Positions 44,202-57,764 of a stretch of DNA of 64,000 nt are shown one piece after another. Within the stretch, counting starts at the first letter, position 1; the number at the start of each line of letters is the position of its first letter. Below the pieces are notes generated by a model, which did no database searches, was not told where the DNA came from, and was given only the letters and a program-made list of their open reading frames with translations. Both the position numbers and the translations under genes were made by a program. The DNA is from Poseidonibacter antarcticus (GTDB taxonomy: Bacteria; Campylobacterota; Campylobacteria; Campylobacterales; Arcobacteraceae), in contig NZ_RCWF01000007.1 of the NCBI RefSeq assembly GCF_003667345.1, positions 62,001 through 126,000 of the forward strand, written 5' to 3'.

Positions 44202-45035
44202 TTATTGTACAACTTGATGAAGTTTTGAACACTGTCCTAAAAATATATCCATTCCACACATATCATTCATAATATCTATAAATGAATGAGCTCGGGCATT
44301 ATATACATAAACGAATATTTCATCGCCTTTTTCTAGGAAATTGTTTTTTCCAAATTCAGCATAAGCTGTTGCACCTGCTGCTATTAGTATACCTTTAGCA
44401 TTACTTGCATCTTTAGTAAACTGTGTTAACTCTTCTAATGGTCCACAGTCTTCTTGTGTATTTAATTTATCAATCATCCAATCTTTTAATTGATTAAAGA
44501 AATAACTATACGATTTTACAGAAGATGTCATTCCATAATCATGAACAATTCCATCTCTTTTAATAAATGATGCAATATGATATTTACTTAAAATTCCATC
44601 TTCTGTAAAATTATCAATAGCAATAACTTCTTGAGAAATACCTTTTGTATTTTTACCCCAATTCTTTTTAGTACTTAATTTATTTCCATCTTGTATTCTG
44701 ATTGAACAATCATTAAAAGCTGAAAAATACTTAGGAATTATATCTATAAACTTACCATCTTTATATACAAAATCACAAATAAGAGCAACTTCTGCTTCTA
44801 CTTGTAGTTTGTCATTTTCTCTACCATGTGTTAATATAATTTCGTCAGAAATAGGATATGTTCCTAAAAAACCATCATTGTCTTTTATATAAAAAGGGAA
44901 CATTCCTTTTGGAGCATCTTTTTCATTTGTTTTTATTTGCGCAAATTCATCTGCTTCTCCTGCTTCACCTAAGTGATTAGCAAAGTTTCCAGCAACGGCA
45001 AATCCTAAATAATCTTTTAAATCGTTTAATAACAT
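44202..45035 (-). CDS. DUF5718-like protein
   Basis: A 277-residue soluble protein. The N-terminal LGFAVAGNFANHLGEAGEAD and EAEVALICDFVYKDGKF segments match, as far as I recall, the DUF5718 family of Campylobacterota and gamma-proteobacteria. The E-x-E-x-A-L pattern resembles the metal-binding part of fumarylacetoacetate-hydrolase-type folds, a possible relation only. Function unknown. It is convergent with the chemoreceptor and has its own likely promoter upstream, and is separated from the fumarase gene by a terminator. Confidence 0.65.
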   Translation of the reverse strand: MLLNDLKDYLGFAVAGNFANHLGEAGEADEFAQIKTNEKDAPKGMFPFYIKDNDGFLGTYPISDEIILTHGRENDKLQVEAEVALICDFVYKDGKFIDIIPKYFSAFNDCSIRIQDGNKLSTKKNWGKNTKGISQEVIAIDNFTEDGILSKYHIASFIKRDGIVHDYGMTSSVKSYSYFFNQLKDWMIDKLNTQEDCGPLEELTQFTKDASNAKGILIAAGATAYAEFGKNNFLEKGDEIFVYVYNARAHSFIDIMNDMCGMDIFLGQCSKLHQVVQ

Positions 45036-46838: not shown

Positions 46839-46866
46839 TTAACTTAAGGCAAGAGCCTTAAGTTAA
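46839..46866 (-). terminator. Terminator after the four-gene CoA-ester set
   Basis: A perfect 12-bp stem (46839-46850 with 46855-46866) with a 4-base AAGA loop, five bases after the stop of the lyase gene at 46872. It marks the end of the 52632-46872 transcript and separates it from fumA. Confidence 0.75.
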
Positions 46867-46871
46867 AAATA

Positions 46872-47855
46872 TTAAGAGAAGAATCTTGTTTGAACAGCTT
46901 CTTGTAATTTAGTACCAGAGAAGTTTGCTCTTTGAACTAATTCCCAGAAATATCTGTAAGTTGCTCTATCATGTAATTCACCATCATATTGGATTGGTCC
47001 CCATTCAGCATCTTGTGCAGCTAAAAGAATATTTTGAGCAGCTTCAAGTTCTGTAAAGTCAGGTTTCATTGCATCTACAATAGCTTGAACTTGTGTTGGG
47101 TAAATTGACCACATTCTCATAAATCCAAATTCATTTCTTGCTTTTTCAGCATCTTTATAAGTTTGGTATGGATTTTTTAAGTCTAATGTAACATTATGAC
47201 AAGGAATAATATGGTTTTCTAAAGCAGCTTGAACTACTTTTGCTTTAGCAGCAGCAATTAATCTATGTTCAAATTGACCTGGACTTCTCATATTTGAAGC
47301 AGGAATTGCTCCTTGGTAACCTGAAACAAAGTCCATTAAACCAAAGTCAAGAACTTGTACCCAAGGTAATGTAGCAGTTTTTTCTACATCTCTTAATGCA
47401 CCGTGTGTTTCAATTAAAACGTGAATTGGAATTTCTCTTGAAATACCAGCTTTTTTTGCAGTTGCTTGAATATATTCAACTTGAGTTTTAGCATCTTCAT
47501 AAGAAGTTGATTTTGGAATAGTAATATATGCTAATTTTTCACCAGCACCTGGTACTAAAATATCAATATCTTGTCTCCAATCTGGATGATCAAAATCGTG
47601 AATTCTTGTCCCTGCCATACCATATGGGTTAGCTTCAGAATTTACAACTCTTACAATCATATTTGCATGTTCAACTTCTTTACCAGTTTCAGCTCCATCT
47701 TCACAATCACAAGTAATATCAAAAACAGGTCCAAGTTTTTCTTGCATAGAGAAACCTTTTAAGATTAGCTTTTCGCTACCTGCAAAGTGTTCACAAGAAG
47801 GAATAATTGGTAAATTATCTCCAGATCCAAATAGTGCTTCATTAGGGTGTGTCAT
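46872..47855 (-). CDS. CoA-ester lyase (malyl/methylmalyl/citramalyl-CoA lyase type)
   Basis: A 327-residue HpcH/HpaI/CitE-superfamily lyase. CEDG (51-54) and the arginine near 84 (GTRIHD) fit the carboxylate/phosphate site, and the two magnesium ligands are present as Glu149 in VLIET and Asp175 in FGLMDF. Such enzymes reversibly cleave 3-hydroxy-3-carboxyacyl-CoA esters into a 2-oxoacid (glyoxylate or pyruvate) and acetyl- or propionyl-CoA. It lies 42 bases after the mesaconyl-CoA hydratase gene, so beta-methylmalyl-CoA or citramalyl-CoA are the natural candidate substrates. It is the last gene of the set. Confidence 0.82.
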   Translation of the reverse strand: MTHPNEALFGSGDNLPIIPSCEHFAGSEKLILKGFSMQEKLGPVFDITCDCEDGAETGKEVEHANMIVRVVNSEANPYGMAGTRIHDFDHPDWRQDIDILVPGAGEKLAYITIPKSTSYEDAKTQVEYIQATAKKAGISREIPIHVLIETHGALRDVEKTATLPWVQVLDFGLMDFVSGYQGAIPASNMRSPGQFEHRLIAAAKAKVVQAALENHIIPCHNVTLDLKNPYQTYKDAEKARNEFGFMRMWSIYPTQVQAIVDAMKPDFTELEAAQNILLAAQDAEWGPIQYDGELHDRATYRYFWELVQRANFSGTKLQEAVQTRFFS

Positions 47856-47897
47856 AATATTTTTCCTTTTATTTAATTTATATTTTTTGTCTTATAA

Positions 47898-48956
47898 TTA
47901 TTTAGCTGTTTTTCTTTTTGGAATAACAACAGTATAATCTAAATCAAGTACTACATTTTTTAAGTACTTACCATTTTCATCTTTTGGATTAGTTATCTCA
48001 TCAGATTTTTGATTTTTAATCGCAATTGTTCTTAATCGCAATAATCCAATATCTTCTCTTTTATGATCAATAGTTTCAATAACTTCAGTATAAGCATAAA
48101 TTGTATCCCCTGCATAAGTAGGGTTAGCATGCGCTCCACTATTTATTGCATATATCCATTGTGCATTTTGTAAACCATTAAATGATAATGCTCTTGCCAT
48201 TGAAATAACAATTCCACCATACATAAGTCTTTGACCCATTGGTGAACTTTTCATCATATGGTCATTGAAATGTACTTTTGCATTATTTTGGTATAACTTA
48301 GTTGCTAATGTATGATCACTATTGTCAACTGTAATACCTTCTGGATGATTTAATCTTTCACCAGCTTCATAATCTTCAAAGAAATATTTTCCACCAGTAT
48401 AATCAGTATTTACACACTTGATTTGAGGAAGATTAATAGTATCTAAAATAGGTGTAGTTTTAGCAAAAGAAGGAACTTCATTAATAGCTGATTTAGTTTC
48501 CTTATCTTTTTTGTGAACCATAACCCATCTTTTGAAGTTTAATACTTCTTCATTATTTTGATTATAACCAACAGAGTGTACATAAACAACTCCACTTTTT
48601 CCACTTGAATTCTCTTTTAATCCAATAACTGTAGATGTCATAGAAACAGTATCTCCTACATAAACAGGAGTAGGAAATGACATTTCTGCATAACCTAAGT
48701 TAGCAATTGCATTTAAAGATATATCTTGTACTGATTTTCCAAATGTAAGATGAAACATTAATGTATCATCAATTGGTTTTTTACTATAACCCATTTCTTT
48801 TGCAACAACATCCGATGAATGTAATGCAAATCTAGAACCAGTAAAGGCAATGTATAAAGATACATCACCCTCACTAATTGTTCGAGGAAGTGGATGAATA
48901 ATTTTTTGACTAATTGAAAAATCTTCGAAAAAATTTCCAACGTTAATTTTAGACAC
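47898..48956 (-). CDS. Mesaconyl-CoA hydratase-like double-hotdog protein
   Basis: A 352-residue MaoC-type dehydratase with two hotdog units. The N-terminus GNFFEDFSISQKIIHPLPRT, with GDVSLYIAFTGSRFALHSSD, closely follows the pattern of mesaconyl-C1-CoA hydratase (Mch, beta-methylmalyl-CoA dehydratase) as I know it; the second unit includes YFFEDYEAGERLNHPEGITV with HFNDHMMKS. It would interconvert mesaconyl-CoA and beta-methylmalyl-CoA. Its start is 10 bases after the stop of the ligase-fusion gene and the next lyase is 42 bases on, so the three are co-transcribed. Substrate is by family, not proven. Confidence 0.8.
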   Translation of the reverse strand: MSKINVGNFFEDFSISQKIIHPLPRTISEGDVSLYIAFTGSRFALHSSDVVAKEMGYSKKPIDDTLMFHLTFGKSVQDISLNAIANLGYAEMSFPTPVYVGDTVSMTSTVIGLKENSSGKSGVVYVHSVGYNQNNEEVLNFKRWVMVHKKDKETKSAINEVPSFAKTTPILDTINLPQIKCVNTDYTGGKYFFEDYEAGERLNHPEGITVDNSDHTLATKLYQNNAKVHFNDHMMKSSPMGQRLMYGGIVISMARALSFNGLQNAQWIYAINSGAHANPTYAGDTIYAYTEVIETIDHKREDIGLLRLRTIAIKNQKSDEITNPKDENGKYLKNVVLDLDYTVVIPKRKTAK

Positions 48957-48966
48957 TTAACTCTCC

Positions 48967-51486
48967 TTATTTATTAAATAGGTTTTGACCTAATGATTTA
49001 TATGTTTCATATAATGTAATCATTTTTTTAGCCCATTTAATTTTTGAAGAATCTACTAATTTATCATTATGTAAGATTACTTCTTTTCCTTCTTTATTTG
49101 CTTTTTCATAAGAAGCAATCATCTCTTCAAAGTCTTCAACTTCAGATTGTTTTGGTGTGAAAATATCATTGATATATTCAATTTGAACTGGGTGAATTAA
49201 TGATTTACCATCAAATCCTAAGTTAAAGGCATCTTTAGTTGAATCTTCACAAGCGAATTCATCATTAACATCGAAGTGTGGTCCATCAATAACAGTTTTA
49301 CCATACGCTTTTGCAGCAAGTGCAATTTGTGAAAGGTAATTAAACATTGCTTTAGAACCTTTTTTAATATCAATTTGAAGTCTATTTGCTAGTTTATTTG
49401 AACCAACAACTACAACTTCTACTCTTGAACTTGCTTCACAAATTTGATGAGCGTTTAATACAGCTAATGGTGTTTCAATCATAATCATTAAAGATAATTT
49501 TGGATCAACTTCATCTATTAATTTTACAGCTTCTAAAACATCTTCTTTTGTTTCAATTTTAGAGAATAATAATCCATCAAGTTCTAACTCTTTAGCTAAT
49601 TCTAAATCTTTTACTATATCTTCACTTCCTAAGTTATTAATTCTTAGAATTCGTTCAGAATCTCCAAATTTAGAACCACTCTCTTTATAAACTGCTCTAA
49701 TTGTATCTCTAGCTGGTTGTCTTTGTTCTTGTAAAATAGCTTCTAATTCAAAAATAACAGAATCAGCTAAAACAGATTTTGCTTTTTCTACATTATGTTT
49801 ATTATAAGAAGGTACAAATAACATAGATCTTCTAGCTTTATATTCTTTAATTTTTTCACCAGTTACTCTTGCATGATATACTTCATGTAAATTTTTAACT
49901 AATTGTTTTCTTAGAACTTTACCATTTTTTGTTCTTGGATAATCTTTCATTCCAAAAATAGTTTTTGGTGCTTTATATCTAGCAAGATTTGCTTGTGAAA
50001 ATGCTAATACTTCAGCTTCTTGGTCTTTTGTTAATTCTTCATGTCCAATTACAGCAATTGCTACAAGTACTTTATCTTTTCCAATTTCTAAACCAAAAGC
50101 AACACAATCAGCTACTAAAGGATGAGTTTTTACAACTCTTTCAATTTCATGTGGAGATACTCTAAATCCAAATGTATTAATAATATCATCTTTTCTACCA
50201 ATGAACCAAATATAACCATCTTTATCTTTTTTAGCGTAATCACCTGTAAAGAAATAACCATTATGTTTAGCTTCTCTTGTTTCTTCTTCTAATTGCCAAT
50301 ATTCTAAGAATAAACCTGGATCATCTTCACCTATACAAATCATACCTTCTTCTTCAACACCAACTTCTTTAAGTGTATCAGGGTTTAATAATTTTACAGT
50401 ATGTCCTGGTTGTACAAATCCAGCAGATCCAGGTCTAATTGGGTTATTAATTGAATGTGAAATATAGTAAGAACACTCACTCATTCCAATTGCTTCATAA
50501 ATATCTTGTTTAAATCTATCTCTCCATAAACCAATCATTTCATCAGATAAATGCTCACCAGCAGACATACAATATCTTAATGATGGACAATCAGCAGCAC
50601 CGAATTCAGTTTTTTGAATAATTTGTCTATAAATTGTAGGTACTCCAATAAAGATAGTACATTTATGTTTTTTAATTAATTCAATCCATGTTCCAGCATG
50701 ATTAGCACCTTCATAAGCGATAACTGTATGACCATTATATAATGGATCCATTAATGCAGAACCTAATACATAAGTCCAGTTAAATTTACCAGAATGCATA
50801 ATTCTGTCATTTTCTTGGAAGTTAAACCAATATTCAGTTGCAGGAGTTCTTCCAACAAGTGATCTATGTGAATGTAATACACCTTTTGGATAACCAGTTG
50901 TTCCTGAAGTATATACTAAATATGCAGGTTCACCTGATTTTGATTTATAATGATTAGCTGTTGTATCTGTATCTTTTAATATTTCAGAAAAAGAATAAAC
51001 ATTCATATCTTTTGGAATATTTAATCCTTCTGTAGAATCAATTCCAGCAACAATAATTGTTTTTAAGTTATCGTGATTTTCTAAGTAAGGTAATAAATTA
51101 TCATACATACTTGCAGATAATACAATAGCACTTGCTTGAGAATCTTCAGCTAAATATTTAACTTCTGAACCTGATAATAGTGTTGAAGTTGGTACTGCAA
51201 TAATACCAGCTTTAATTGCTCCAAAAAATGAAATAGGGTAAGCAAGTGAGTTTTTTAAACATACTAAAACTCTATCTCTTGGCTCAAATCCTAATCCTGT
51301 TAAGAAGTTACAAATTTGATCAGATTTTTGTGCTAATTCTTTATATGTTATTTCATCTGTACCTAATTTATCATCTTCGATGATCATGGCAGTACTATTT
51401 TCCTTAGCTGTTCCTACATGTTTAGATGTACAAGCAACACCAATATTTAAGTATTCAGGTACTTCAATTGTTACATTTGAACTCAT
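48967..51486 (-). CDS. Acyl-CoA synthetase fused to CitE-like lyase domain
   Basis: An 839-residue two-domain protein. Residues 1-535 are an AMP-forming acyl-CoA synthetase: P-loop YTSGTTGYPKGV (192-203), GMSEC near 334, TGDYAKKD (414-421), hinge GRKDDIINTFGFRVSP (430-445) and catalytic Lys523 in NGKVLRK. Residues 551-839 form a CitE/malyl-CoA-lyase-like domain starting RRSMLFVPSYN. In this domain the usual DLED is ELEA (580-583), IET is kept (Glu671), but the second magnesium ligand, the Asp of a GxxDL motif, is Lys698 in GSNKLA. The first domain probably activates a short dicarboxylic acid; the second may be inactive or regulatory. It is 15 bases downstream of another lyase gene. Confidence 0.85.
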   Translation of the reverse strand: MSSNVTIEVPEYLNIGVACTSKHVGTAKENSTAMIIEDDKLGTDEITYKELAQKSDQICNFLTGLGFEPRDRVLVCLKNSLAYPISFFGAIKAGIIAVPTSTLLSGSEVKYLAEDSQASAIVLSASMYDNLLPYLENHDNLKTIIVAGIDSTEGLNIPKDMNVYSFSEILKDTDTTANHYKSKSGEPAYLVYTSGTTGYPKGVLHSHRSLVGRTPATEYWFNFQENDRIMHSGKFNWTYVLGSALMDPLYNGHTVIAYEGANHAGTWIELIKKHKCTIFIGVPTIYRQIIQKTEFGAADCPSLRYCMSAGEHLSDEMIGLWRDRFKQDIYEAIGMSECSYYISHSINNPIRPGSAGFVQPGHTVKLLNPDTLKEVGVEEEGMICIGEDDPGLFLEYWQLEEETREAKHNGYFFTGDYAKKDKDGYIWFIGRKDDIINTFGFRVSPHEIERVVKTHPLVADCVAFGLEIGKDKVLVAIAVIGHEELTKDQEAEVLAFSQANLARYKAPKTIFGMKDYPRTKNGKVLRKQLVKNLHEVYHARVTGEKIKEYKARRSMLFVPSYNKHNVEKAKSVLADSVIFELEAILQEQRQPARDTIRAVYKESGSKFGDSERILRINNLGSEDIVKDLELAKELELDGLLFSKIETKEDVLEAVKLIDEVDPKLSLMIMIETPLAVLNAHQICEASSRVEVVVVGSNKLANRLQIDIKKGSKAMFNYLSQIALAAKAYGKTVIDGPHFDVNDEFACEDSTKDAFNLGFDGKSLIHPVQIEYINDIFTPKQSEVEDFEEMIASYEKANKEGKEVILHNDKLVDSSKIKWAKKMITLYETYKSLGQNLFNK

Positions 51487-51501
51487 TGTTATAACTCCTT
51501 A

Positions 51502-52632
51502 TTAAATTTGACCGTATGGCCAGTTTTCTTTAAATGTATGTACAGGCATTCTATTTAATACCGATAATGCAAATATCTCATCTTCTTTACTTAAACTTCT
51601 AAGTGCATATGCTCTTAAAATATTTTGTAGTGCTTTTCCAAACATTGGTGGATCTAACATCTCACCTTTATATCTAATAGCTCCACTTAATAAAGCATCA
51701 GTTTCTATTGCTAATTTTAATACTGTAATATCATGTTCAAGTTCTTTAGGACTTGGTGTAAATGCAACTTTACAAACATTAATATGATTTGGTGTAATAA
51801 CTTGTTTACCTGTTAATCCCATTGCATTTTCTCTTTTTGCATGAGAATAAACATGTCTAGATGCATCATCACCATGTAAATCTAACCATCTTCTAATGTC
51901 TTTTTTCTCAACACAATGATCAGGTAATGAGTGTGGTGTTAACATAACTTCAACTCCACCAATAACTCCAGCACCTTTAACTCTAGCTTCCATTGTAAGC
52001 ATATTAAAGAATGTTTCTAACTCATTAATCCAACCTTCAGGTGTGATTTTATAAGCCATTGCTTTAGAGAAATCATGGATTCCAAATACAACATGTTTAA
52101 CAGTTGCATGATCCATTAATCTATCAGCAATTTGAAGAGATTTTGGATGCTCAATAATTGGTTGAATTGTTAAATCACTACCAATTGATACTAACCAAGA
52201 AGATAAATCTCTGATTTCAGCAGATCCATAAACTTCTCCAGCTTTTGCTAAAACAATTACATCAATGTATTTATGAATTTGTTTTAACATTTTTAAATCT
52301 TCTTCATATTCGTCTGTTCTGAAAGGATTTATTCTTACTGCTATTTGAAAATTTCTCTCAGGAAACTTTGGAAGTTCTTGGATTAATAATTCTCTTGACA
52401 TAGCTTTTTGTCTACAACCATCTTCTAAATCAAAAAGTACAGTATGTGCTTTTGTTTTATAAGCATGTTTTTGTAATCTCAATTTAGCTTGCTCCATACT
52501 TTCATATGTACCATCAAGTGGATTGAATTTAATTGGTGGGTAATAAATCTGAATACCAGGCCAGTATCCACCAAGAACTGGTGTCAAATCATCGTTTGCT
52601 GTTAATTTAGATAAATCTATTGCAGAAGTCAT
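51502..52632 (-). CDS. Second CoA-ester lyase, HpcH/HpaI/CitE family
   Basis: A 376-residue lyase-superfamily protein. DLED is at 68-71 (VLFDLEDGC), Arg100 precedes INPFR, and the metal ligands are Glu161 in PIIEHP and Asp187 in FGIHDF, so the active site looks intact. It differs markedly from the 327-residue lyase of the same set in its N-terminal 60 residues (YWPGIQIYYPPIKFNP) and a C-terminal extension. It is the first gene of the four-gene set; the ligase fusion begins 15 bases downstream. Substrate unknown, but a CoA thioester of a branched or C4/C5 hydroxy acid is likely. Confidence 0.78.
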   Translation of the reverse strand: MTSAIDLSKLTANDDLTPVLGGYWPGIQIYYPPIKFNPLDGTYESMEQAKLRLQKHAYKTKAHTVLFDLEDGCRQKAMSRELLIQELPKFPERNFQIAVRINPFRTDEYEEDLKMLKQIHKYIDVIVLAKAGEVYGSAEIRDLSSWLVSIGSDLTIQPIIEHPKSLQIADRLMDHATVKHVVFGIHDFSKAMAYKITPEGWINELETFFNMLTMEARVKGAGVIGGVEVMLTPHSLPDHCVEKKDIRRWLDLHGDDASRHVYSHAKRENAMGLTGKQVITPNHINVCKVAFTPSPKELEHDITVLKLAIETDALLSGAIRYKGEMLDPPMFGKALQNILRAYALRSLSKEDEIFALSVLNRMPVHTFKENWPYGQI

Positions 52633-53620: not shown

Positions 53621-53646
53621 GCAAAGTAAGCAAAAGCTTACTCTGC
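53621..53646 (-). terminator. Terminator of the Bat operon
   Basis: A hairpin of 10 pairs with one mismatch (53621-53631 with 53636-53646, AAAA loop) overlapping the last codons of batD, followed on the minus strand by a T/A-rich stretch. Confidence 0.6.
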
Positions 53647-55161
53647 TTCTTCATCTTCAAAAAAAGCAATTAGGGCTTTTTTATCAATTTTATTTTTTGC
53701 ATTTTTATAAAGATTCTCTTCAAGTTGATTTTGAATATCTTCAATAAGTTTATTTTTTTTACTATATGGTAATAATAGCTCAAATAATTCTTTATCATTT
53801 TTTGCTTTTTTAATTAATCTTATAATATTTTTTTCTACTTTTTTATCTGTTTTTTTCTTAGTAAAAAATATAAATAAGGCTAATCCTACAAGTAAAATAC
53901 AAATAGCTAGAATTATATATTTTGTAGTTTTATCTTTTTCTACATCTTGAACATTAGTATTACTTGAAACTTTTGGAATATTATTTGAAGTTTCAATTTT
54001 TACTTTTGAGCTATTTTGATTACTATTATTTACTTTTATATTTATTGCTTGTGAATGAATAGTTTTTACTTGTTTTGTATTTTTATCAAAATAAGTTAGA
54101 GTAAGTTCTGGAATTGTATAATCACTTTGTGAGACAAAGGCTATTTTTTGAGAAAAAGTACCTTTGTATTCATTTCCTTCAAAACTTGAACTGATTTTTG
54201 GCTCTTCTGCATAAGTTACTACATTATCAATATTTAGAGTATATTTTTGTATATCATCAATATTTCCAACACCTTTTATATTAATACTAAGATTAACTGG
54301 TTGATCTGCATTAACTTCATTTTTATCAACACTTGTTTCTAAGGTATAATCACCAAAAAGTTCAAGATTATTAGGTAAGGGTTTAACCACTAGATGTAAG
54401 CTATTTGAATAAACTTTTTGCCATGATATTCTATTTGTAACTGCATCAAAGAATGGGTCATTAAAAAAAGAATCATTCATAAAATCATTTGAAATTCTTC
54501 TTTTTATTTGTTTTCCAACATCTGCTTCTATTGAATTAAGGTCATACTCTCCTGCTTTTTGAGGAAATAAAATATATTTTTGTGTAAATACAATATAATC
54601 ATTTTCACTACTTTTATCTGCTTCACCTACTTTTTTTATCCAAAAATTCTCAAGTTTTGGTTCATTCATTTGAAGTTTATCAATTCTTGAATCTAGTTTA
54701 TACTTAAATACTACATCTAAGTTAATTGATTCTCCCACTTTTACTTCTTTTTTATCTGCTTTAATTTCTAATACAAAATCCTCACCATCTTTGCTGGCAT
54801 TAGCTTTTATTACTGATATTTTTGCTACTCTTGTTTCATAAACTTTTCCATCGGCTTTTATTTTAAAAGGTGGGATAATAACATCTTCTTTTGGAGCAAA
54901 ACTATATGTATAAGATACTTTCTTTGAATAATTACCATTTATATATGTTCTTGATGTAGATGAAGCTCTATTTAGAATATTATAATTACCTATTGTATTT
55001 ATTTGTGGGAAAGTTGTATCATCAATATCTGATGTAATTGTAAAACTAGCTAGTTCACCTTCATAAATTGCTGGAGTATTAAGAGTTAATTTAACATTTG
55101 CAAATAATCCTGTTATAAAAAGTATAGTAAGTATAAATATTTTACCAAGGTTGTTTTTCAT
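53638..55161 (-). CDS. batD: BatD-like oxygen-tolerance protein
   Basis: A 507-residue membrane protein with a signal peptide (GKIFILTILFITGLFA), a long beta-rich periplasmic region, one transmembrane helix near 410-432 and a charged cytoplasmic tail. It belongs to the BatD family associated with BatA, BatB and BatC in envelope stress or aerotolerance. It starts 20 bases inside batC and is the last gene of the operon. A close paralogue is encoded at 35514, behind flhA. Confidence 0.85.
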   Translation of the reverse strand: MKNNLGKIFILTILFITGLFANVKLTLNTPAIYEGELASFTITSDIDDTTFPQINTIGNYNILNRASSTSRTYINGNYSKKVSYTYSFAPKEDVIIPPFKIKADGKVYETRVAKISVIKANASKDGEDFVLEIKADKKEVKVGESINLDVVFKYKLDSRIDKLQMNEPKLENFWIKKVGEADKSSENDYIVFTQKYILFPQKAGEYDLNSIEADVGKQIKRRISNDFMNDSFFNDPFFDAVTNRISWQKVYSNSLHLVVKPLPNNLELFGDYTLETSVDKNEVNADQPVNLSINIKGVGNIDDIQKYTLNIDNVVTYAEEPKISSSFEGNEYKGTFSQKIAFVSQSDYTIPELTLTYFDKNTKQVKTIHSQAINIKVNNSNQNSSKVKIETSNNIPKVSSNTNVQDVEKDKTTKYIILAICILLVGLALFIFFTKKKTDKKVEKNIIRLIKKAKNDKELFELLLPYSKKNKLIEDIQNQLEENLYKNAKNKIDKKALIAFFEDEEAE

Positions 55162-55927
55162 TATTATCTCCTTTTGATAAGGGAATTAAAAGTGTATTTA
55201 TTTTTCTATCGTTTAGAAGTTTTTGCCACTTTCTTTCTTCCATATTACTAATTTCTTGTTTTTTATTAGATACATTTTTATCTTTATTTTCTTTTATATT
55301 TTGAGCTTTGTTTTCTTTGTTTTGTTTTTGTTGCTCATCTTGTTTCTTTTTATCTTGTTGTTTCTCTTTGTTTTTTTCATTTTGATTTTGACTATTCTGT
55401 TTATCTTGTTTATCGTTCTGTTGTTTTTTATCCTTCTTATTATCTTTTTTATCTTGATTTTTGTTGTCTTTCTTTTTATCTTGATTTTTGTTGTCTTTCT
55501 TTTTATCTTGATCTTTATTTTGTTCTTTATTTTGTTCTTTTTGTTTTTTCTTCAAAAGTTCCAAGTTATATTTAGCATCTTTATCATCTTTTATTTTTAA
55601 AGCTTTTTCATAACTCTCAATAGCCTTTTTGTTATTTTTTAAATTAGCGTAGGTATTTCCCATATTATAAAGCTTGTCAAACTCTAAAATTTTATTTGAA
55701 ATTGAAGAATAAGCTTCTAGGGCTTCTTTATATTTTTTTGCTTTATATAAAGAATCTGCTTCATTAAATTTAGATTCATCCTTTTGTATTTTAGAAAAGG
55801 AATTGGCTGCTTTTTCATAATCTTTATTTTCATAAGCTTTTTTAGCATCATCTAAATGTTTAAAATCAAATATTGAAGCTTGTAAGAAAGAAACCAAAAT
55901 ACAAAATAAAACTATAAATATTTTCAT
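55142..55927 (-). CDS. batC: BatC-like TPR protein
   Basis: A 261-residue exported protein: signal peptide (FIVLFCILVSFLQAS), TPR helices at about 25-120 (including NMGNTYANLKNNKKAIESYE near 90), then a Lys/Asp/Gln/Asn low-complexity stretch of about 100 residues and the C-terminal KQPW. BatC proteins with this shape accompany BatA/BatB. The low-complexity part contains a 9-residue repeat (KKDNKNQDK twice) with nearly identical DNA. It overlaps batB by four bases and batD by 20. Confidence 0.78.
   Translation of the reverse strand: MKIFIVLFCILVSFLQASIFDFKHLDDAKKAYENKDYEKAANSFSKIQKDESKFNEADSLYKAKKYKEALEAYSSISNKILEFDKLYNMGNTYANLKNNKKAIESYEKALKIKDDKDAKYNLELLKKKQKEQNKEQNKDQDKKKDNKNQDKKKDNKNQDKKDNKKDKKQQNDKQDKQNSQNQNEKNKEKQQDKKKQDEQQKQNKENKAQNIKENKDKNVSNKKQEISNMEERKWQKLLNDRKINTLLIPLSKGDNNEKQPW
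55451..55510 (-). repeat. Short 27-bp repeat in batC
   Basis: The segment encoding KKDNKNQDK is repeated twice with period 27 bases (starts of the unit near 55451 and 55478) and a partial third unit. It is a slippage-prone in-frame repeat. Confidence 0.6.
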
Positions 55928-56868
55928 GATTTTCTCCTAGGAAGTGAAAAAATTCCCATAAAAAATAGGATTATTGCTATTATCAATGGATAAAAAAACA
56001 ACTCTTTTTGATCTTTGATAACATCTTCACTTTGTGTACTTGCTTTGTAATTATTGTTTATTACTTCGCTTAATTGTTTAATATCATCTTGATTTAATGA
56101 CTGTTCCATATAAGCTCCATTTGTATTTAGAGCTAATTTTTTAATATCTTCATTTATTTTTACTAAAACTGCATTTCCATTATCATCTTTTATAATTCCA
56201 CCTTTTTTAGTTCCGATATTATAAATATAAACATTGATATTATGTGTTTTTGCATAAGCTATTTCTTCATCAAACTTTTTTTTATTTCCACCATCTGTAA
56301 AGATTAATAGTATTTTATTTTTTTCATCTTTTAAAAGGTCATTTGTAACTTCTAGTACAGAGTTAATATTTGTTCCTTTTAGATTTAAATAATCAAAGCT
56401 TAAATTTTTAACCAAAAATTTTAAAGAATTAAAATCCTCAGTTAAAGGTGAAATTAAAAATGTTTGAGAACTAAATCCTACAAGTCCAACTCTTATATTT
56501 TTTAATTCATCTAAAAATGAAAAAAGTTTATTTTTCTCAAATTCAAATCTACTTGGATAAACATCATTTATCATCATAGATTTTGAAATATCAACAGCAA
56601 CTAACATATTTACAAAACTTGATTTTATTTTTATTTCACCATTATTGATAATAGGTCTTGCAAATGCAAGGACAATAAAAGAAAAAGAACAAATCAATAT
56701 AATAGCTCTTGTCTTTTTTGAAAATCTATTATTTTTAAATTCAATTTTGTCAAATACTTCTTTAGAAAATTGTCCTAAAACAAAATCTTTTTTTTGTCTT
56801 ATTAAATAGATTAATGGTATCAACAAAAGAAGTAAATATAAAAACTCAATATTTTTAAAATAAAACAT
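55924..56868 (-). CDS. batB: BatB-like vWA-domain protein
   Basis: A 314-residue membrane protein. A hydrophobic N-terminal helix (8-24) and another at 55-71 precede a von Willebrand A domain with the metal site DISKS (Asp93, Ser95, Ser97), a GTN motif near 158 and IFTDGGNKK (about 182). A C-terminal transmembrane helix ends the protein at about 291-308. BatA/BatB-type proteins interact with MoxR ATPases. It starts two bases downstream of the batA stop. Confidence 0.85.
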   Translation of the reverse strand: MFYFKNIEFLYLLLLLIPLIYLIRQKKDFVLGQFSKEVFDKIEFKNNRFSKKTRAIILICSFSFIVLAFARPIINNGEIKIKSSFVNMLVAVDISKSMMINDVYPSRFEFEKNKLFSFLDELKNIRVGLVGFSSQTFLISPLTEDFNSLKFLVKNLSFDYLNLKGTNINSVLEVTNDLLKDEKNKILLIFTDGGNKKKFDEEIAYAKTHNINVYIYNIGTKKGGIIKDDNGNAVLVKINEDIKKLALNTNGAYMEQSLNQDDIKQLSEVINNNYKASTQSEDVIKDQKELFFYPLIIAIILFFMGIFSLPRRKS

Positions 56869-56870
56869 CC

Positions 56871-57764
56871 TTACTCCTTATTTACTATATAAAAATATGC
56901 TAGGAAAAACAAAAGAGCAAAAGCTAAGAAATATTGATAAAAATATGTTTTCTTTACATATTTATCAGCTTTTATTTCACTTTTTTCTAATTTATTAATT
57001 GTTGAATAAATATCTTTTAAACCTTGAATTGTATTTGCGTGAAAAAATTTCGCATTTGTTTGACTTGAAATTTCTTTTAATACTGCTGGATTAAAATCAC
57101 CAACAGAGCCAACTCCAATAGTATAAACTTTGATTCCGTATTTTTTAGCAGTTTTTATTGCTACTTTTAGGGGAATTGTATTTGTATTATCCATTCCATC
57201 TGTTAATAATATTGCAATTTTGTTTTTTGATTTACTTGTTTTAAATAAATTTGAACTTAAAAAAAGTGCTTCATTTAAAGCTGTTCTTTGACGTCCTGCA
57301 ATTCCAACATCTATTTTACTTAGTAATCTTTTTATACTATTCTTATCATATGTTAATGGAATTGCTACGTATGCAAAATCTGCAAAAATACTTAAACCTA
57401 AGCGATCATTTTCTCTTTTATTTACAAAATCTGTAACAATATCTTTTACGATATTGAATTTATTCGCTTCTTGCATTGAACCACTTGCATCTAAAATAAG
57501 TGATATTTCATAACCTTTATCATTTCTAACAACAACATTATCTTCTTTGATTGGTGAAGCTAATGCAATAATTAAAAATAAAATAGTTAAGAATTTTAAA
57601 CTATTTATTAAAAGCATAGATTTTCTTGAAGCTTGTTGTAGTAAAGCTAAGTTAGGAAAATAAAAAGAGATTCCTTTTGCTTTACAAAATTTCAAACATA
57701 AATAAAATAGTATTAAAATCAAAAATGCATAAGGATATTCAAATGTATAATTTTCAAAAATCAT
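56871..57764 (-). CDS. batA: BatA-like vWA-domain protein
   Basis: A 297-residue membrane protein with helices at 11-25 and 53-70, a von Willebrand A domain with DASGS (Asp92, Ser94, Ser96) and LLTDGMDNTN (about 185-194), and a C-terminal helix (about 275-293). It is the first of the two tandem vWA genes of the operon. Overlaps the DUF4381-like gene by four bases. BatA versus BatB is assigned by order. Confidence 0.85.
   Translation of the reverse strand: MIFENYTFEYPYAFLILILFYLCLKFCKAKGISFYFPNLALLQQASRKSMLLINSLKFLTILFLIIALASPIKEDNVVVRNDKGYEISLILDASGSMQEANKFNIVKDIVTDFVNKRENDRLGLSIFADFAYVAIPLTYDKNSIKRLLSKIDVGIAGRQRTALNEALFLSSNLFKTSKSKNKIAILLTDGMDNTNTIPLKVAIKTAKKYGIKVYTIGVGSVGDFNPAVLKEISSQTNAKFFHANTIQGLKDIYSTINKLEKSEIKADKYVKKTYFYQYFLAFALLFFLAYFYIVNKE

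Follow-up and report, generated by a model that had tools for sequence, protein, structure and literature searches.

The window analyzed here, a 64,000-nucleotide stretch of the Poseidonibacter antarcticus genome (Arcobacteraceae; contig NZ_RCWF01000007.1, positions 62,001 to 126,000), carries a run of four genes that encode, in order of transcription, a CitE-like protein (lyase B), an acyl-coenzyme A (CoA) ligase fused to a CitE-like domain, a protein resembling the mesaconyl-CoA hydratase Mch, and a second CitE-like protein (lyase A) (Table 1). A first-pass annotation had described four same-strand genes with spacers of 10-42 bases, and the minus strand does carry all four as in-frame open reading frames (ORFs), separated in transcription order by 15, 10 and 42 bases; the enzyme families that it had named were upheld by Pfam matches. 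It overlooked, however, a linked class I fumarase gene, a possible mesaconase, which lies on the same strand 179 bases downstream of lyase A. A hairpin between these two genes suggests that the four genes close one transcription unit. In the window's lineage the position upstream of lyase B is occupied by bioD.

Table 1. Features of the cluster and its surroundings. Positions are those of the window, except for the regulator, which is given for locus L130.
Feature	Position	Strand or orientation	Basis or remark
Lyase B, CitE-like, 376 amino acids; first gene of the unit	51502..52632	-	PF03328, active-site residues, fold matches
Acyl-CoA ligase-CitE fusion, 839 amino acids	48967..51486	-	PF00501 + PF13193 + PF03328
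Mch-like mesaconyl-CoA hydratase (predicted), 352 amino acids, GTG start	47898..48956	-	PF19315, PDB matches
Lyase A, CitE-like, 327 amino acids	46872..47855	-	PDB matches, active-site residues, mch neighbor elsewhere
Terminator-like hairpin, 12-bp stem, directly after lyase A	46839..46866	-	Consensus match only; weak T-tract
Class I fumarase, single chain, 496 amino acids	45202..46692	-	PF05681 + PF05683
DUF5718 protein, next gene after fumarase	44202..45035	-	PF18985; pathway membership not claimed
BhcR/IclR-like regulator	L130 16033-16770	divergent from cluster	Not at the window locus (bioD there)

Distribution of the cluster

We surveyed 397 Campylobacterota genomes, counting as a holder any genome that encodes the hydratase. 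There were 39 holders, 35 of them from the Arcobacteraceae (of 43 surveyed) and four from one other family of the order; together with the eight Arcobacteraceae that are non-holders they form the 47-genome set used below. The four genes stand in the same order in all 38 of the other holders, and the arrangement is therefore not due to chance. Genes scattered and unlinked in close relatives had been named by the first-pass annotation as the result that would speak against its proposal, and the neighborhood survey found the opposite.

Searching GTDB contigs with lyase B as the query returned 38 loci, in which the four genes occur together wherever the contig is long enough. Their labels include Poseidonibacter (98%, the closest named-species match), Aliarcobacter, Malaciobacter, Halarcobacter and Sulfurospirillum, as well as three metagenome-assembled genomes (MAGs) of Gammaproteobacteria and one MAG labeled Thermodesulfovibrionales (contig JAJOKM010000074), an assignment that may be a binning error. 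All four genes are present in the gammaproteobacterial MAGs (L110, L112 and L116, about 5 Mb each); the individual proteins or domains are roughly 58-81% identical, and a fumarase relative (59-60%) is encoded elsewhere in the genome. Horizontal transfer likely brought the cluster there.

Predicted activities of the encoded enzymes

The 352-residue protein matches PF19315 (MC_hydratase) with 81.8 bits against a gathering cut-off of 26.5, and aligns over its full length with PDB entries 4e3e (E = 2e-111), which we take to be the Chloroflexus Mch, and 8hgn (E = 6e-103), named as a beta-methylmalyl-CoA dehydratase. Its score against the haloarchaeal mesaconyl-CoA hydratase equivalog (81) is below the cut-off of 560. 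With both the family domain and a full-length named relative, the protein is mesaconyl-CoA hydratase-like in its predicted activity.

In the fusion protein an AMP-forming acyl-CoA ligase (residues ~1-540) is followed by a degenerate CitE-like domain (~541-839). The adenylation motifs of the ligase half are invariant, and its structural matches are to general AMP-forming ligases, none of them substrate-specific; we infer a mesaconate- and/or citramalate-CoA ligase. The fusion is present in every locus checked, and a search of these loci for other lineages in which the two halves are separate genes (a Rosetta-stone test) found none.

A Pfam search placed PF03328 (HpcH_HpaI) in lyase A, in lyase B and at the C-terminus of the fusion. 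Residues conserved across CitE-like enzymes (PMC3832036) are an Arg and the Asp that positions it, which is Asn in one of the subgroups, the Mg-binding Glu and Asp, a Glu-Asp pair binding the water ligands of the metal, and an Asp in the lid. In both stand-alone lyases all seven superfamily active-site residues are identical in 39 of 39 homologues, metal ligands Glu149/Asp175 and Glu161/Asp187 included, as in active CitE-like and malyl-CoA lyases. The intact metal ligands reported by the first-pass annotation were thus found in these two proteins, but the fused domain lacks this residue set. Its metal-ligand Asp is replaced by Lys, Asn, Ser, Ala or Thr, and the second Asp, that of the water-holding pair, by Ala, Met or Gly, in all 39 homologues, while the metal Glu and the lid Asp are retained in all 39 and the Arg in 38. 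Because both Asp residues are gone throughout, the fused domain is unlikely to be a metal-dependent lyase; CoA-ester binding, channeling or the formation of mixed oligomers are guesses at its role. A further identity considered for lyases A and B, that of a (3S)-malyl-CoA thioesterase, was rejected: in that subgroup Glu replaces the lid Asp (PMC3832036), and the lid position is Asp in 39 of 39 homologues of each lyase.

The nearest structures to lyase A are PDB 3qqw (E = 4e-137) and 3r4i, putative citrate lyases that align over the full length; malyl-CoA lyases, including that of R. sphaeroides (4l9y), match less strongly. Plasmid records of Cupriavidus metallidurans CH34 and Sphingobium TomTYG74 hold a homologue of lyase A (59-60% identity) directly beside mch, and these pairs support a partnership of lyase A with Mch; its predicted activity is that of a beta-methylmalyl-CoA (malyl-CoA) lyase. 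The hydratases of these two plasmids and of Marinobacter M3C share 46-51% identity with the one described here; in contrast to the cluster, neither lyase B nor the ligase fusion was found in those records (plasmids gave no match to the fused protein at E 1e-100), and in Sphingobium and Marinobacter a family III CoA-transferase precedes mch.

Lyase B has only weak sequence matches to solved structures. Its predicted model falls in the CitE-like fold and counts Mycobacterium CitE and (S)-citramalyl-CoA lyase structures among its top matches, although with the low confidence of the model (predicted local distance difference test, pLDDT, 66) such fold matches support assignment at the superfamily level only. 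The protein may be a citramalyl-CoA (or malyl-CoA) lyase, possibly a citramalate-forming one.

The linked fumarase as a candidate mesaconase

Every one of the 39 holders has a close orthologue of the fumarase (at least 74% identity) or, in three draft genomes, contig-end fragments of it. Of the eight non-holder Arcobacteraceae only one has such an orthologue, and the others have distant class I fumarases. On the Thermodesulfovibrionales-labeled contig the same run of genes includes a different class I fumarase, an alpha subunit of the two-subunit type with 36-39% identity. That two types of fumarase stand beside the same four genes argues for a functional link. Class I fumarases can act as mesaconases (PMC4682846), and the cluster-linked enzyme is plausibly one, interconverting mesaconate and citramalate. 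Five genomes (G359, G207, G122, G377 and G396) carry two copies of the close orthologue, one of which could be specialized for mesaconate. The presence of FumC was considered as a discriminator of the fumarase's role and set aside, as the family matches (26 of the 47 genomes over cut-off) mix FumC with related lyases.

The DUF5718 gene that follows the fumarase remains a neighbor of the cluster at most Arcobacteraceae loci, including those that the fumarase has left, and its product has no relative among PDB structures. On the other side of the cluster, upstream of bioD, sequence inspection of positions 53638-57764 found genes for VWA-domain and TPR proteins, similar to those of a Bat-type operon.

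Linkage to methylcitrate genes and a divergent regulator

Two loci outside the Arcobacteraceae place the cluster near genes of the methylcitrate cycle (prp). On the Thermodesulfovibrionales-labeled contig two ORFs resembling pyruvate carboxylase B/oxaloacetate decarboxylase alpha are followed by lyase B, the ligase fusion, mch, lyase A, a prpE-like gene, the fumarase alpha gene, prpB+prpC and prpD; prpB and prpC form one ORF of 668 amino acids (methylisocitrate lyase + methylcitrate synthase; L126 12084-14090). In the Sulfurospirillaceae MAG G351, prpD-prpC-prpB-prpE lies about 6 kb from the cluster, and a sodium/solute symporter gene of the acetate-symporter superfamily is found near these genes. 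The methylcitrate genes of Arcobacteraceae are of the AcnD/PrpF type and located away from the cluster; in the window genome prpB, prpC, acnD and prpF are on another contig.

A marker of the methylcitrate cycle is present in all 39 holders. AcnD occurs in 38 of them, against 4 of the 358 other Campylobacterota, and the holder that lacks it, G351, has prpD (prpDCBE). The association of AcnD with the cluster gives Fisher p = 2e-47 over the 397 genomes and 2e-7 within the family, both values inflated by shared ancestry; the independent prp linkages are stronger evidence than these co-occurrence statistics.

A divergent IclR-family gene encoding 245 amino acids stands at the G351 cluster; the same regulator precedes lyase B divergently in 17 of the 38 relatives, from several genera and the second family of holders. 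Its best NCBIfam model is BhcR, and the glyoxylate bypass repressor IclR matched as well, all below cut-off. BhcR is a regulator of glyoxylate assimilation (PMC11323563). Beside the prp genes of several Campylobacterota we also observed a protein of ~313-327 amino acids (L130 10891-11832, with homologues in L123, L128 and L129), encoded divergently in L123 and L130; it has no match in NCBIfam or Pfam, and is possibly an unrecognized propionate regulator.

Proposed pathway

The cluster has already been described. Miller et al. (2007; PMC2147049) report that ab1917-ab1921 of Arcobacter butzleri RM4018 are five consecutive genes for a CitE-like protein, an acyl-CoA synthetase-CitE fusion, a mesaconyl-CoA hydratase-like protein, a second CitE-like protein and a class I fumarase; they proposed the reaction glyoxylate + propionyl-CoA <-> pyruvate + acetyl-CoA, likened the set to the 3-hydroxypropionate and citramalate cycles, and favored the glyoxylate-consuming direction. 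Judged by that published description, the window and the Aliarcobacter/Arcobacter loci L095 and L114 share this order, ligase-CitE fusion included. Their account concerns one genome, and nothing is said in its accessible text about loss of a metal ligand from the fused domain, a wider distribution, the regulator or a link to prp outside Arcobacter. The present analysis adds the survey of conservation, the degeneracy of the fused domain, the independent linkages to prp and to fumarase genes, the regulator, and the hypothesis of a glyoxylate shunt free of isocitrate lyase. A literature search, with subscription journals mostly outside its reach, found no experimental follow-up of the 2007 proposal.

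We consider it likely that the cluster and the fumarase form a module for the interconversion of acetyl-CoA + pyruvate and glyoxylate + propionyl-CoA. What was observed is which genes are present, their order and conservation, the state of the active sites, and the patterns of co-occurrence and linkage; every substrate and the direction are what we infer. Lyase B would interconvert acetyl-CoA and pyruvate with (S)-citramalyl-CoA/citramalate, the fumarase, acting as a mesaconase, citramalate with mesaconate, and the ligase would use ATP and CoA to activate mesaconate to mesaconyl-CoA, which Mch would interconvert with beta-methylmalyl-CoA and lyase A, in turn, with glyoxylate and propionyl-CoA. 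The enzyme types and their conserved linkage support what the first-pass annotation had proposed in general terms, a set that activates, hydrates and cleaves a C4/C5 CoA ester.

Similar chemistry is known from other pathways. The citramalate cycle, which Ivanovsky (1997) put forward for Rhodospirillum rubrum and which is disputed there, leads from acetyl-CoA and pyruvate through citramalate, mesaconate, mesaconyl-CoA and methylmalyl-CoA to glyoxylate and propionyl-CoA; according to a review (PMC8307300), propionyl-CoA returns to pyruvate via succinyl-CoA in that organism, whereas here the methylcitrate cycle co-occurs, and the accessible part of the review reports no gene cluster for the R. 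rubrum cycle. The glyoxylate loop of the Chloroflexus 3-hydroxypropionate bi-cycle shares the chemistry of Mch and of the malyl/beta-methylmalyl/citramalyl-CoA lyase, but the cluster here is without Mct or mesaconyl-C4-CoA hydratase and has a ligase and a fumarase. The haloarchaeal methylaspartate cycle also converts mesaconate by way of mesaconyl-CoA and beta-methylmalyl-CoA to glyoxylate and propionyl-CoA, but uses a CoA-transferase and draws its mesaconate from glutamate (PMC5592240).

The gene content of the genomes bears on which of these routes is available. Isocitrate lyase, which a glyoxylate cycle would demand, was not found over cut-off in any of the 47 genomes, and the weak match in the window genome is PrpB. 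Malate synthase matches are limited to seven of the 47 (seven of the 39 holders), one of them partial. By sequence inspection, malate synthase G of the window genome (L124 6559-8730) lies on another contig in an apparent purine-degradation operon, among xanthine dehydrogenase-, permease-, deaminase- and urease-like genes, and probably serves purine-derived glyoxylate. The ethylmalonyl-CoA pathway was rejected for the window genome, in which crotonyl-CoA carboxylase/reductase is not over cut-off anywhere, in agreement with the earlier remark that the window has none of the other enzymes of this pathway; among 15 genomes only G122 has it over cut-off. The methylaspartate cycle was likewise rejected, with methylaspartate ammonia-lyase in none of the 39 holders. 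Within the window, neither Mct nor Meh was found in the cluster or in the regions beside it, and no genome-wide search for them was made. For a citramalate cycle, all enzyme types are present and the methylcitrate cycle is available, without isocitrate lyase.

Direction and competing explanations

Propionyl-CoA would be common to the module and the methylcitrate cycle, which would convert it with oxaloacetate to succinate and pyruvate. In the glyoxylate-forming direction pyruvate would be regenerated, for a net conversion of acetyl-CoA + oxaloacetate (+ ATP) to glyoxylate + succinate, which is also what the glyoxylate shunt yields. We tentatively, and only slightly, favor this direction over the reverse, and its coupling to the methylcitrate cycle as a glyoxylate shunt free of isocitrate lyase is a somewhat more speculative possibility. 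Towards glyoxylate each gene product would take its usual physiological direction (an ATP-driven ligase, hydration, cleavage), with pyruvate catalytic, and the methylcitrate cycle would be exactly the propionyl-CoA recycling that is needed. That Arcobacteraceae were strongly stimulated by acetate in Antarctic sediment (PMC11252027) weakly favors the same direction, although the pathway used is not shown thereby.

Run in reverse, in a manner resembling the second loop of the 3-hydroxypropionate bi-cycle, the same module would dispose of glyoxylate and propionyl-CoA: lyase A would condense the two, Mch would dehydrate the product to mesaconyl-CoA, and after removal of CoA the fumarase would form citramalate, the ligase would activate it and lyase B would cleave citramalyl-CoA to acetyl-CoA and pyruvate. 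This is the published proposal for ab1917-ab1921 (PMC2147049). Propionate as a substrate would fit the linkage to prpE, whose product activates it, and the glyoxylate-type IclR regulators nearby and the growth data for A. butzleri also fit this direction. However, there is no isocitrate lyase to supply glyoxylate. Glycolate oxidase was rejected as an uninformative marker of a glyoxylate source: one GlcD-like protein occurs in nearly all genomes, with or without the cluster, and almost all of these proteins fall below the glcD cut-off. CoA would, moreover, have to be taken off mesaconyl-CoA only for ATP-dependent re-activation to follow. We rate the reverse direction as rather unlikely.

The first-pass annotation had left open a glyoxylate-forming or glyoxylate-consuming branch on the one hand and a dedicated route for mesaconate, itaconate or citramalate on the other, and the evidence favors the former. 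Elsewhere, degradation of mesaconate and itaconate uses a class I fumarase, an (S)-citramalyl-CoA lyase and relatives of R-specific hydratases, as catabolism of an external C5 acid would here. The cluster, however, holds no transporter gene, is a conserved core in the Arcobacteraceae, and has its linkage with methylcitrate genes rather than with an itaconate CoA-transferase, no CoA-transferase being present in the cluster. The RipABC route of itaconate degradation was rejected, with RipB at 105 against a cut-off of 340 and RipC at 36 and 51 against 375. Because the cluster is core in the family, lacks a transporter and is tied to methylcitrate and propionate metabolism, a role in central carbon metabolism fits better, and dedicated C5-acid use is improbable.

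We give as little credence to a malate-CoA ligase/malyl-CoA lyase unit, in which the lyases would yield glyoxylate and acetyl-CoA and Mch would act in a side reaction. CitE-like lyases commonly accept malyl-CoA (PMC3832036), and malyl-CoA was also invoked for glyoxylate supply by Miller et al. (PMC2147049), but the invariant Mch and the fumarase linkage would be left unexplained. Known malate-CoA ligases, of the MtkAB type, are moreover unrelated to AMP-forming ligases.

Several points weigh against the module as we propose it. Its enzyme activities are predictions from sequence, and for AMP-forming ligases sequence is a poor guide to substrate. One CoA-removal step is without a dedicated gene in either direction. 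The prp association inside the Arcobacteraceae is phylogenetically confounded, the independent linkages rest on two MAG contigs, and in Desulfurella a methylcitrate operon can be present yet unused (PMC11861179). Finally, no growth on acetate, propionate or the two combined was reported for A. butzleri RM4018, whose genome has the orthologous cluster (PMC2147049).

Implications

None of the Arcobacteraceae surveyed has isocitrate lyase, most have the cluster and most are without malate synthase, so that what is at stake is how these bacteria handle glyoxylate, propionyl-CoA and acetyl-CoA; the genes of the cluster make this question concrete and testable. Should the glyoxylate-forming direction prove correct, the long-disputed citramalate cycle would gain a genetic basis, and two pathways would be seen to couple naturally as an alternative glyoxylate shunt. 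The module would then join the glyoxylate, ethylmalonyl-CoA and methylaspartate pathways as a further genetically defined means of acetyl-CoA anaplerosis, and one that is core in the Arcobacteraceae.

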